A stretch of 8,530 nt of DNA from Nitrospirae bacterium CG2_30_53_67 (GTDB taxonomy: Bacteria > CG2-30-53-67), in assembly GCA_001873285.1 (NCBI GenBank), contig MNYV01000085.1:1-8530 (forward strand), in the 5' to 3' direction. Position 1 is the stretch's first letter, and each line of letters opens with the position of its first letter. Positions 3,176-6,253 of this stretch are shown piece by piece. Both the position numbers and the translations under genes were made by a program. Under the pieces are notes generated by a model. It was given only the letters and a program-made list of their open reading frames with translations. It made no database searches and was not told the origin of the DNA.

Positions 3176-4423
3176 TTAACCCGGGACGCACATGAAAAAC
3201 AGCAGGGCCAGAGAGAGGACGATCATCAGGATCACGGTCAGCCATGCCGCCATATTATAGACCCTGGAATTGACGAACTCCCCCATGAGACGCTTGTTGT
3301 TCACGAGGCGAAGCATCAGGATCAGGACAAACGGCAGGAGCAGGCCATTGGCCACCTGGGAGAAAAACATGATCTTCACCAGGGAGATATTGGGGATCAG
3401 GATGAAGACGGCCCCCAGGATGATAATGCCGGTGTAGAGGGAATAGAACTGCGGCGCCTCCCGGAAATGCTTGTTGACCCCCAGTTCCCACCCCATGCCT
3501 TCGCAGACCGAATAGGCCGTGGAAAGGGGGAGGATGGAAGCGGCAAACAGGGAGGCGTTGAAAAGCCCGAACGCAAAGAGCATATAACAATAATCGCCTG
3601 CCAGGGGCTTTAAGGCCAGGGCCGCGTCCTTGGCCGTCTCCACCATAATGCCGTGTTTGAAGAGGGTGCCGGCACAAACCACGATGATAAAAAAAGCCAC
3701 GATGTTGACGATAAAGGCGCCGATGATGACATCGAGACGGTGATAGGCGTACTCCTTGAGCTTGATCCCCTTCTCCACAACCGATGCCTGCTGATAAAAC
3801 TGCATCCAGGGCGCGATCGTGGTCCCGATCAGGCCGATCAGCATGACCAGGTAGACCTTGTTCATGTGCAATTGCGGCCGGACCGTCTGCCTGGCGACCT
3901 CGGACCAGTCCGGCCTGGTGACAAAACCTGAAATAATGTAGGAGAGATAAAAGATGCACGCCACCAGGAAGACCTTTTCCACGGATTTATAATTCCCCTT
4001 GACCACCAGCCACCAGACGAACAGGGCACAGAGGATGATGAGCACGGACCTTCTGATCCCGAAGAGGTCCGCGCTGGCTGCGATGCCCGCGAATTCCGCC
4101 ATGACGTTGCCGATGTTGGCCACGATCAGGACGACCATGGCATAAAAAGTGACCTTGACCCCCATTTCCTCCCGGATCAGGTCCGCAAGCCCCTTGCCTG
4201 TGACCACGGCCATGCGGCTCGCCATCTCCTGTACCACGATCAGGACAAAGATGATCGGGATGAAAGACCAGAGCAGGGAGTAGCCGAAATGCGCGCCGGC
4301 CACGGTATAGGTGGCGATGCCGCCGGCATCATTGTCCACGTTGGCCGTGATGATGCCGGGCCCCATGACTGAGATGAATATCCGGATCTTTTTCAGTATG
4401 GATTTGGTCCTGGTGTTCAGCAT
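3176..4423 (-). CDS. NRAMP-superfamily divalent cation transporter, divergent metal site (415 aa)
   Basis: This is an integral membrane protein with about eleven hydrophobic helices and the NRAMP/SLC11 (LeuT-fold) layout. TM1 reads GPGIITANVDNDAGGIATY (21-39), followed by AGAHFGYSLLW (42-52), TM3 with the N---E-AG-A pattern (105-115), and TM6 GTTIAPWMQFYQQAS (200-214). Against Mn/Fe carriers such as MntH, the TM1 motif DPGN is replaced by DAGG (32-35) and the TM6 motif MPH by APW (204-206). The aspartate is kept, but the metal-binding Asn and Met are lost. Loss of that Met is consistent with the NRAMP-related magnesium transporters (NRMT) rather than transition-metal carriers. The gene starts three bases after the stop of a PRC/MgtE_N/CBS protein, with GAGGAAG 15 bases upstream, so it is probably translationally coupled. 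Family: very sure. Mg2+ as substrate: inferred from motifs and neighbour; Mn2+ or Fe2+ remain possible. Confidence 0.88.
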   Translation of the reverse strand: MLNTRTKSILKKIRIFISVMGPGIITANVDNDAGGIATYTVAGAHFGYSLLWSFIPIIFVLIVVQEMASRMAVVTGKGLADLIREEMGVKVTFYAMVVLIVANIGNVMAEFAGIAASADLFGIRRSVLIILCALFVWWLVVKGNYKSVEKVFLVACIFYLSYIISGFVTRPDWSEVARQTVRPQLHMNKVYLVMLIGLIGTTIAPWMQFYQQASVVEKGIKLKEYAYHRLDVIIGAFIVNIVAFFIIVVCAGTLFKHGIMVETAKDAALALKPLAGDYCYMLFAFGLFNASLFAASILPLSTAYSVCEGMGWELGVNKHFREAPQFYSLYTGIIILGAVFILIPNISLVKIMFFSQVANGLLLPFVLILMLRLVNNKRLMGEFVNSRVYNMAAWLTVILMIVLSLALLFFMCVPG

Positions 4424-4426
4424 ATT

Positions 4427-5746
4427 TTAAAGCTGTATCTTCCTCTTGGCCCTTCGCCATGCAATCGCAACCAGCCGGCTGAAGATGTCATCCATGGTGA
4501 TAATGCCGATCAGAATATTGGACGCATCCACCACAGGCACGGCGTTGACCTTGTATTTGTCCATCAGAAGCGCAATCCGCTTCACATCATCCTCGACATG
4601 AATCTTGACGGTCTTTTTCAAAGCGGCCTTCATCACTTCGTCGGGAGGGTCGGCGGTGATCAGGCGGCGAAGTACGGTGGAGCCTGCAAGATGGTTCTCT
4701 TTATCCACAATAAAAATATTATGGATGGTTTCGGCCTTCAGCGTTTTTTCCTTGACGATCTTGAGCGCCTGTTCAATGGTCGCCGTATCCGGTACGGCGA
4801 TATATTCGGTGGTCATCAGGCCTCCGGCAGACTCCTCGGAGTAGCCGAGAAGCTTTGAGAGCATCTTGGCGTTCTTGGATTCCATCAGGCCGAGTATCTT
4901 GTTCACCGTCCCCTCCGGCAGATCGCCCAGAAAATCCGCCGCTTCATCCTTGGGTATGTTATTCAATATCTCGACCGCCTCCTTTTCGGACAGATCCTCC
5001 AGAAGAGACTTCTGCTCTTTGAAATCCAGGGCGGCGAAGAGCCGGCTCTTGGTATGGAGATCCAGGACCTTGAACAAGGCGAGCCTGTCCTGCGGGGCGA
5101 GATCCAGCATGATTTCGCTCAAGTCCGCGGCCGGAATTTCCCTGAGCATCTTCTGGGAAACGTCAACCTTGATCGTCTTGCTCACGGGGTTGATGGAGAG
5201 GGGCTGGATATGTTTCCAGGTGATGAAACTCGGCTTATTCAGGTATTCCGAATTTTTATTGAAGATCCTGACCAGCGGGTCGAGGAATTTTTCCAAACCC
5301 AGCCTCCGGACAATCCCTCTCAAACCGATGTCCACGTGCGCCACAACCAGATCCTGTTTGGCCTGAAGAAACTGGATATCGTTGACACGGATGACATTCT
5401 GGTTGTTGGTATCGACCACCTGCTGGTCCAGAATGTCCTGACGGATGGAAAGATCGCTGTGGTTGTTGATGGATGAAGAAAATTTCAGATCAGAAGCCGG
5501 GAGGTTCAGCCGGATGACGTGTTGGGTTATCTCAGAGATCCCGCTCCAGTCCACCGAAGCCCAGGATTTATGGAATCCCCCGGCCTCGACAATCAGGGTC
5601 TTGGACCTTGCGTACTTCCCCAGCGGCTCGATGATGATATCATGCAGAACCCCCTGAGGTTGATTGTCCTTATCAAAGACTCTCGCGCCCTGAAGCTCCG
5701 AGAAATAAACAAACATGAAATTGGGCTTCTGATTTTCAAGGGCCAT
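4427..5746 (-). CDS. Soluble PRC-barrel / MgtE_N / CBS-pair protein (439 aa)
   Basis: The domains in order are as follows. A PRC-barrel-like segment at about 12-80 includes SELQGARVFDKDNQPQGVLHD. A second PRC-like segment at about 100-185 includes DILDQQVVDTNNQNVIRVND. An MgtE_N helical domain at about 200-300 has repeated short helices such as LSEKEAVEILNNIPKDEAA. A CBS pair follows at about 305-428, entered by GYSEESAGGLMTTEYIAVP, which is the characteristic MgtE junction. In MgtE channels MgtE_N and the CBS pair form the cytosolic Mg2+ sensor that closes the pore. Here the five-helix membrane domain is absent: the protein ends RRAKRKIQL after CBS2 and has no hydrophobic helix. The very next gene is an NRAMP-like carrier, so I infer this protein gates or senses for that carrier. 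The start is the ATG at 5744-5746; its ribosome site is weak. A promoter candidate lies at 5864-5892. Domain calls are strong; the regulatory partnership is inference. Confidence 0.85.
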   Translation of the reverse strand: MALENQKPNFMFVYFSELQGARVFDKDNQPQGVLHDIIIEPLGKYARSKTLIVEAGGFHKSWASVDWSGISEITQHVIRLNLPASDLKFSSSINNHSDLSIRQDILDQQVVDTNNQNVIRVNDIQFLQAKQDLVVAHVDIGLRGIVRRLGLEKFLDPLVRIFNKNSEYLNKPSFITWKHIQPLSINPVSKTIKVDVSQKMLREIPAADLSEIMLDLAPQDRLALFKVLDLHTKSRLFAALDFKEQKSLLEDLSEKEAVEILNNIPKDEAADFLGDLPEGTVNKILGLMESKNAKMLSKLLGYSEESAGGLMTTEYIAVPDTATIEQALKIVKEKTLKAETIHNIFIVDKENHLAGSTVLRRLITADPPDEVMKAALKKTVKIHVEDDVKRIALLMDKYKVNAVPVVDASNILIGIITMDDIFSRLVAIAWRRAKRKIQL

Positions 5747-5781: not shown

Positions 5782-5952
5782 TCATAGAACGACTTCAATC
5801 TCTTTGGTGACAAGACCTGGTTTTGTCTTTATCACATTCACTTTTTCAAGACCATCCTTTTTTAACTTATCAGCGGCAGGATCTCATGTCAAGATATCAA
5901 CCAGATATTCGGCCGAGACCGTACCGAAACCGGGAATCTCAAGATTGAACAT
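5782..5952 (-). pseudogene. Short reading frame (57 codons) with in-frame TGA: small selenoprotein or broken gene
   Basis: An ATG at 5952-5950 follows a very strong GGGGGAGGAGG and overlaps the end of the 104-aa gene. Translation gives MFNLEIPGFGTVSAEYLVDI, then LT, then TGA at codon 23 (5886-5884). The same frame then continues DPAADKLKKDGLEK and VNVIKTKPGLVTKEIEVVL to a TGA at 5784-5782. Both halves look like real protein. If the first TGA were decoded, the product would be 56 residues with Sec or another residue between Thr22 and Asp24. The opening LEIPGFGTVSAEYLV reminds me of the start of small HAD-type 'soluble P-type ATPase' proteins, but no catalytic DxD motif follows, so that likeness is weak. 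The only nearby stem (AUCCU/AGGAU starting two bases after the UGA, 19-base loop) is a poor bacterial SECIS. The alternatives are a nonsense or deletion mutant, or a real 22-aa peptide. Confidence 0.45.
5864..5892 (-). promoter_or_regulatory. Promoter candidate for the MgtE_N/CBS-NRAMP pair
   Basis: On the minus strand a perfect TTGACA (5892-5887) is followed after 17 bases by TAAGTT (5869-5864). That box is preceded by TGA as an extended -10 element and followed by an A-rich stretch. The layout matches the mtnP promoter (17-base spacer, TGA before the -10). The -10 itself matches only three of six consensus bases. Transcription would begin near 5857, about 110 bases before the MgtE_N/CBS start. 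The in-frame TGA of the short reading frame lies immediately after the TTGACA box. Confidence 0.45.
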
Positions 5953-6253
5953 CCTCCTCCCCCTTCCAGTGATTGGAATCCTCCCTCAGGGCCCGGTCGC
6001 ACTGCACACCCGCATTCTCTTCCAGCAGCCGCTTGAAACGGGGCCGGTAGATCAGCTCAAACTCCTCGTTCTTGTCCGGAAACAAAATGAGAACATTCCT
6101 TCGGGTTTCTTCGATAAACTCCAAGGCCTCCCGTTCGGAAAGGGGGTCTTCCGTAAGAATCCGTGCCGCTTTGTCAACCATCTTTCTCAGCCGGCGCATC
6201 TTCTCTTCTTCATCCCGATATCCTCGACCGTATGCAGCAGATTCCTCACTCAT
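5939..6253 (-). CDS. Conserved small protein of unknown function (104 aa)
   Basis: I do not recognise a named family. The protein is soluble, charged and mostly helical. Its core is KMVDKAARILTEDPLSEREA followed by LEFIEETRRNVLILFPDKNE, and then FELIYRPRFKRLLEE, a tail that looks conserved rather than random. There is no signal peptide or membrane segment, and a single Cys at residue 84 (GVQCDRAL). Its ATG overlaps the stop of the MrfB-like exonuclease by four bases (ATGA). A good AAGGGA lies five to six bases upstream, inside the exonuclease's last codons, so start and coupling are clear. The neighbours suggest it could serve the same repair process as the helicase/nuclease pair, but nothing in the sequence shows a catalytic site. 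Confidence 0.75.
   Translation of the reverse strand: MSEESAAYGRGYRDEEEKMRRLRKMVDKAARILTEDPLSEREALEFIEETRRNVLILFPDKNEEFELIYRPRFKRLLEENAGVQCDRALREDSNHWKGEEDVQS

Follow-up and report, generated by a model that had tools for sequence, protein, structure and literature searches.

The closest described systems to the locus analysed here are the operons named mgtE-nramp by Shin et al. (2014, PMC4072509), who reported that most NrmT genes adjoin a gene for a protein corresponding to the N-terminal cytosolic domain of MgtE. There the partner was speculated to exert cytoplasmic feedback regulation or to act as a chaperone. In the same paper, the NrmT of C. acetobutylicum rescues Mg2+-uptake mutants and works without its partner. 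That of A. capsulatum, which has an MgtE-like gene adjacent, rescued an Mn2+ mutant fully but needed low millimolar Mg2+ to rescue an Mg2+ mutant, and co-expression of the MgtE-like protein brought no further gain in Mg2+ rescue, i.e., no partner effect. The carriers themselves, also written NRMT, are defined by DxxG-TxxA/T instead of DPGN-AxxM, with Ala for the Met ligand, Trp for the first His and a Gln in helix 10 (PMC8806188). In the literature searched, no paper on the MgtE-like partner later than that of 2014 was found. The locus analysed below is thus a previously described gene pair, and since the idea of regulation is already present there, the proposal to which a sequence-only reading of this DNA had led amounts to an independent rediscovery.

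The window, i.e., the whole stretch of 8,530 nucleotides that was analysed, is contig C85 of a 2.36-Mb draft genome (G000). The sequence-only reading had recognised in it a PRC-PRC-MgtE_N-CBS-CBS protein (hereafter the regulator), lacking a membrane domain and standing 3 bases before an NRAMP-fold carrier, and both the open reading frames and Pfam agree. The two genes (Table 1) share the same frame, the 3 bases separating the stop codon of the regulator from the ATG of the carrier. Before them, on the same strand, lie the genes of a DEAH-type helicase (truncated where the window ends), of an RNase H-like/TPR protein and of an unknown 104-aa protein; after them come those of a methylthioadenosine phosphorylase, of a PfkB-type kinase and of a TPR lipoprotein-like protein. 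The 104-aa protein (5939-6253), whose gene separates the RNase H-like one from that of the regulator, has no Pfam or NCBIfam match.

Table 1. Features of the gene pair, with positions in the window
Feature	Residues	Positions	Strand	Basis
Regulator gene, PRC-PRC-MgtE_N-CBS-CBS, without membrane domain	439 aa	4427..5746	-	ORF, Pfam, AlphaFold, Foldseek
First PRC barrel	11-82	5501..5716	-	Pfam PRC; AlphaFold beta strands, block pLDDT at least 87
Second PRC barrel	101-183	5198..5446	-	AlphaFold; conservation
MgtE_N superhelix; D267 (= TtMgtE D91, Mg4) and D271 (= D95, Mg6) kept	198-304	4835..5155	-	Pfam, alignment
CBS pair; D420 (= D247, Mg4) kept; E216, D226, D250 replaced by K389, K399, S423	305-425	4472..4834	-	Pfam, alignment
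Short basic tail, where MgtE would enter the acidic plug helix	426-439	4430..4471	-	alignment, AlphaFold
Carrier gene, NRMT-type SLC11/NRAMP member	415 aa	3176..4423	-	Pfam, structure match, motif, tree
DAGG, helix 1; D32 = EleNRMT D55; G35 replaces NRAMP Asn	32-35	4319..4330	-	alignment, tree set
TTIAPW, helix 6; T201 = EleNRMT T224; A204 replaces NRAMP Met; W206 replaces His	201-206	3806..3823	-	alignment, tree set

The carrier matches the Nramp family of Pfam (E 3.1e-103), and its best solved relative is EleNRMT, the Mg2+ transporter of Eggerthella lenta (PDB 7qia; E 6.8e-111), the next-best solved Nramp, of MntH type, being matched at E 3.4e-26. The fold superposes on 7qia with a Z of 51.8 and an rmsd of 2.4 over 391 residues. 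The replacement of DPGN by DAGG and of MPH by APW, already pointed out by the sequence-only reading, is plainly seen, and all the NRMT-defining residues (D32, G35, T201, A204, W206 and Q356) are nearly invariant in 81 sequences, D and G of the motif occurring in 81/81 and T and A in 80/81. As that reading had proposed, the carrier was placed in a maximum-likelihood tree, where it falls together with 80 relatives and EleNRMT, apart from an MntH-type side made up of two Nramps (Dra and Bfra), with a support of 100/100; its nearest neighbours are Omnitrophota sequences. By sequence, metal-site motif, tree and predicted fold the carrier thus belongs to the known NRMT group, and transport of Mg2+ and not of Ca2+, a property of that group, is predicted for it. 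On sequence grounds an MntH-type Mn/Fe carrier is rejected, by the E values of the structure matches, the metal site and the tree. As a separate observation, the helix-3 glutamate E110 (4094-4096; EleNRMT E133), among the last possible proton-pathway residues, corresponds to Asn in 15 of the 81 sequences, scattered over several lineages.

The regulator presents PRC in two stretches (25.5 bits, cut-off 21.2), MgtE_N (E 2.4e-21) and CBS (E 4.5e-16). The MgtE pore domain (PF01769) is absent from its 439 residues in the Pfam search, and the score against TIGR00400 (161) lies under the cut-off of 232.75, so that, judged by its domains, it is not an MgtE. The AlphaFold model (mean pLDDT 87) displays the same modules, and comparison with MgtE cytosolic domains (Foldseek, VIA-align 2) gives Z values of 24-27 over about 240 residues. 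The PRC part has no significant match among solved sequences, and the structure-search results hardly test it.

How general is this association? A carrier-alignment scan of genome contigs from 84,980 species yielded at least 579 confirmed relatives, the best 80 of which were used. Among these, the regulator adjoins the carrier on the same strand in 73 of the 75 loci with enough flank (72 upstream, 1 downstream). The sister genome of the genus is part of this count, and because the loci were selected for their closeness to this carrier, distant NRMTs may show a lower rate. In the same best 80 the two genes mostly overlap or lie no more than some tens of bases apart, and all full-length regulators match the PRC region; MgtE_N and CBS are present in every regulator examined, and in one locus (L038) two separate frames make up the regulator. 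Each of the two non-adjacent loci has an unlinked regulator elsewhere in its genome, as do 4/6 genomes whose locus is cut by a contig end. The search for adjacency or fusion that the sequence-only reading had called for has therefore brought out the former, while no natural fusion of carrier and regulator occurs in these 80 loci. The distances of both proteins go together (r 0.88 for 69 pairs, computed without a third gene as control), and beyond the pair the loci have almost no neighbouring genes in common, the exceptions being a PfkB match in L039 and some weak ones to TPR. Pairs of this kind, some with the gene order reversed, also occur on plasmids of Alicyclobacillus, Citrobacter, Arthrobacter, Mycolicibacterium and Rhodococcus; there the regulator is labelled "CBS domain-containing protein" and the carrier a divalent metal or Nramp transporter. 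Each paired plasmid carrier has an NRMT-like site, and a second Mycolicibacterium Nramp, not beside a regulator, is without it.

Some individual loci are worth describing. Three from Actinomycetota plasmids (L132, L133, L135) encode longer carriers of about 530-580 aa, extended at both termini and with the site DNDAG[GA]/TT[IV]APW. In L086 (1781-3106) a Nitrospirota NRMT has no adjoining regulator, that of the genome being on another contig (L122), and its neighbour is a divergent membrane-protein gene, CNNM/CorC-like by eye. The unlinked regulator of an acidobacterial genome (Terriglobia, L127) has a single in-frame TAA within its matched part and may be broken.

Both proteins are kept, with 91-93% identity, in another genome of the genus; together with the recurrence of the pair in many phyla, this confirms that the pair is real and conserved far beyond chance. 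Among the eight genomes sampled from the phylum the pair is restricted to this genus, the six others having full-length MgtEs and no Nramp. This distribution and the position of the carrier inside Omnitrophota sequences suggest that the pair may have been acquired as one unit. CorA and CNNM-type proteins are likewise encoded in the genome, as is an MgtE pore protein that has CBS domains and lacks MgtE_N; the NRMT is hence not the sole candidate route for Mg2+. This pore protein (L104, contig C162 of G000, 1025-2281) is a reverse truncation, with 418 aa arranged as CBS-CBS-MgtE pore; no MgtE_N was recognised in it, and the regulator in the window holds the single MgtE_N of the genome.

These data bear on the possibility that the carrier is mainly an Mn2+ importer, the regulator responding to Mn2+ or another metal. 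The behaviour of the A. capsulatum NrmT described above (PMC4072509) speaks in its favour, as does the fact that the carrier is the only Nramp of a genome where CorA and the CBS-MgtE pore protein could supply Mg2+. Against it, the carrier has 45% identity to EleNRMT, its Mg2+ site is complete and lacks the methionine ligand, and relatives stand behind Mg2+ riboswitches: an M-box lies directly before the pair in 3 of the 18 loci scanned (L064, L067, L095), none being present in our window even at E values up to 5. We regard this explanation as unlikely.

The Mg2+ sites established for T. thermophilus MgtE (PMC5882242) were mapped onto the regulator by comparison. The equivalents of D91, D95 and D247 are kept, so that the Mg4 pair and D95 alone survive. 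E59, E216 (which we take to be part of the Mg6 site), D226 and D250 are replaced by R, K, K and S, respectively, and a short basic tail takes the place of the acidic plug helix. Across 73 regulators, the D95 equivalent is kept in 72 and that of E59 is acidic in 55, while the Mg4 pair is D at both positions in 47, at neither in 26 and never mixed; given that its loss is confined to one clade, this co-variation would represent one or two events. Furthermore, E59, D226 and D250 also vary among 11 full MgtEs of the phylum, and the loss of those alone is thus not peculiar to detached sensors. With no plug helix and most of the MgtE ligands lost, the regulator cannot close the carrier in the way it closes MgtE. 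The earlier proposal that the MgtE pore was swapped for an NRAMP carrier is thus supported in part: a detached MgtE-type sensor does stand beside an NRMT, but it bears two PRC barrels and the losses just described. The strong form of this reading, a sensor that shuts the carrier as in MgtE, is ruled out by the missing plug helix and Mg5/Mg7 ligands.

The loss of most Mg2+ ligands would also fit a regulator that senses a nucleotide (ATP, AMP or c-di-AMP) through its CBS pair instead of Mg2+, tuning the carrier to the energy state. Nucleotide binding is widespread among CBS-pair proteins, MgtE itself is reported to bind ATP in its CBS domain (PMC5529423), and some of the CBS pairs that match the regulator in structure have AMP or c-di-AMP bound. 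Nevertheless, the retention of the Mg4 pair here and of D95 in nearly all relatives, as well as the regulation of some of these operons by Mg2+ riboswitches, make this explanation quite improbable.

The largest set of invariant residues of the regulator belongs to the second PRC barrel (D107, Q109, D112, R120, N122, D123, D139, R147 and R148 in 70 sequences), which suggests that this barrel may be the partner-binding part. As the frames of regulator and carrier are in register, a read-through fusion could be folded, and AlphaFold returned a pTM of 0.79 for it vs. 0.57 for the regulator alone, with the second PRC barrel modelled at higher confidence; the artificial two-residue linker joining the chains forces nearness, and pTM alone does not prove an interface. 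By a rough estimate, placing the carrier alone would give about 0.46-0.60 and placing it together with the PRC part 0.60-0.74; the modelled value favours a defined arrangement of carrier and regulator. That the invariant residues concentrate in this barrel and not in the Mg2+ sites could also be expected of an assembly or metal-handling factor without feedback control, as in the chaperone role considered by Shin et al. However, MgtE_N and CBS are never lost from the regulators examined and NrmT functions without a partner (PMC4072509), and this role appears very improbable to us.

Our preferred reading, which we hold to be reasonably probable, is that of a two-gene Mg2+ uptake unit, composed of an NRMT carrier and a dedicated cytosolic regulator that slows it when Mg2+ is plentiful. 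The gene pair, its domain content, the NRMT membership, the conserved adjacency and the riboswitch link in relatives are established. The carrier would take up hydrated Mg2+, and probably also Mn2+, through its LeuT-type fold, while the regulator would dock on its cytosolic face, mainly through the PRC barrels. Cytosolic Mg2+ may then bind between MgtE_N and the CBS pair at Mg4/Mg6-like positions, perhaps with a nucleotide in the CBS pair, and the resulting change of shape would slow the carrier. The absence of a plug helix, the retained Mg4 and D95 positions, the invariant second barrel and the fusion pTM make regulation in trans, by a mechanism other than the MgtE plug, likely. The more specific idea that a detached MgtE-type sensor gates a LeuT-fold carrier in trans, with PRC docking, a reduced Mg4/Mg6 site set and no plug helix, is more tentative. 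Against the two-gene unit stand the A. capsulatum results, in which the partner did not improve Mg2+ rescue and the carrier acted as an Mn2+ importer, the partner-independent function of the C. acetobutylicum NrmT (both from PMC4072509), the replaced ligands and missing plug-helix acids of the regulator, and, in this genome, the lack of an M-box in the window and the presence of CorA and the CBS-MgtE pore protein. Nearly all of the NRMTs most closely related to this carrier have the regulator, a protein with two PRC barrels that is probably a stable partner of NRMT. If the proposal is true, it would reveal a way for bacteria to place a secondary Mg2+ carrier under feedback control, with the same sensor module acting on transporters that are unrelated.

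Compared with the cytosolic domain of MgtE (PDB 2yvy, 2oux, 8gpv), the regulator shares MgtE_N and the CBS pair, at about 26-31% identity, and differs by having no pore and no plug helix, by its two N-terminal PRC barrels and by the replacement of most Mg2+ ligands. The carrier resembles the NrmT/NRMT carriers (C. acetobutylicum CA_C0685/CA_C3329; EleNRMT) in fold, DxxG-TxxA site and conserved Gln, and, as in most NrmT loci, an MgtE-like gene adjoins it; unlike those carriers, it is of a different lineage, closest to Omnitrophota, has no M-box in the window and is a predicted Mg2+ transporter. With the mgtE-nramp operons (Fig. S5 of Shin et al., 2014) the locus shares the gene pair and the proposed feedback role, whereas the MgtE-like gene of C. 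acetobutylicum is, in that paper, split in two. The word PRC does not occur in the text of PMC4072509 and its passages seen here contain no residue-level comparison of MgtE Mg2+ sites; what is new in the present analysis is the mapping of those sites, the missing plug helix, the invariant second PRC barrel and the fusion model.
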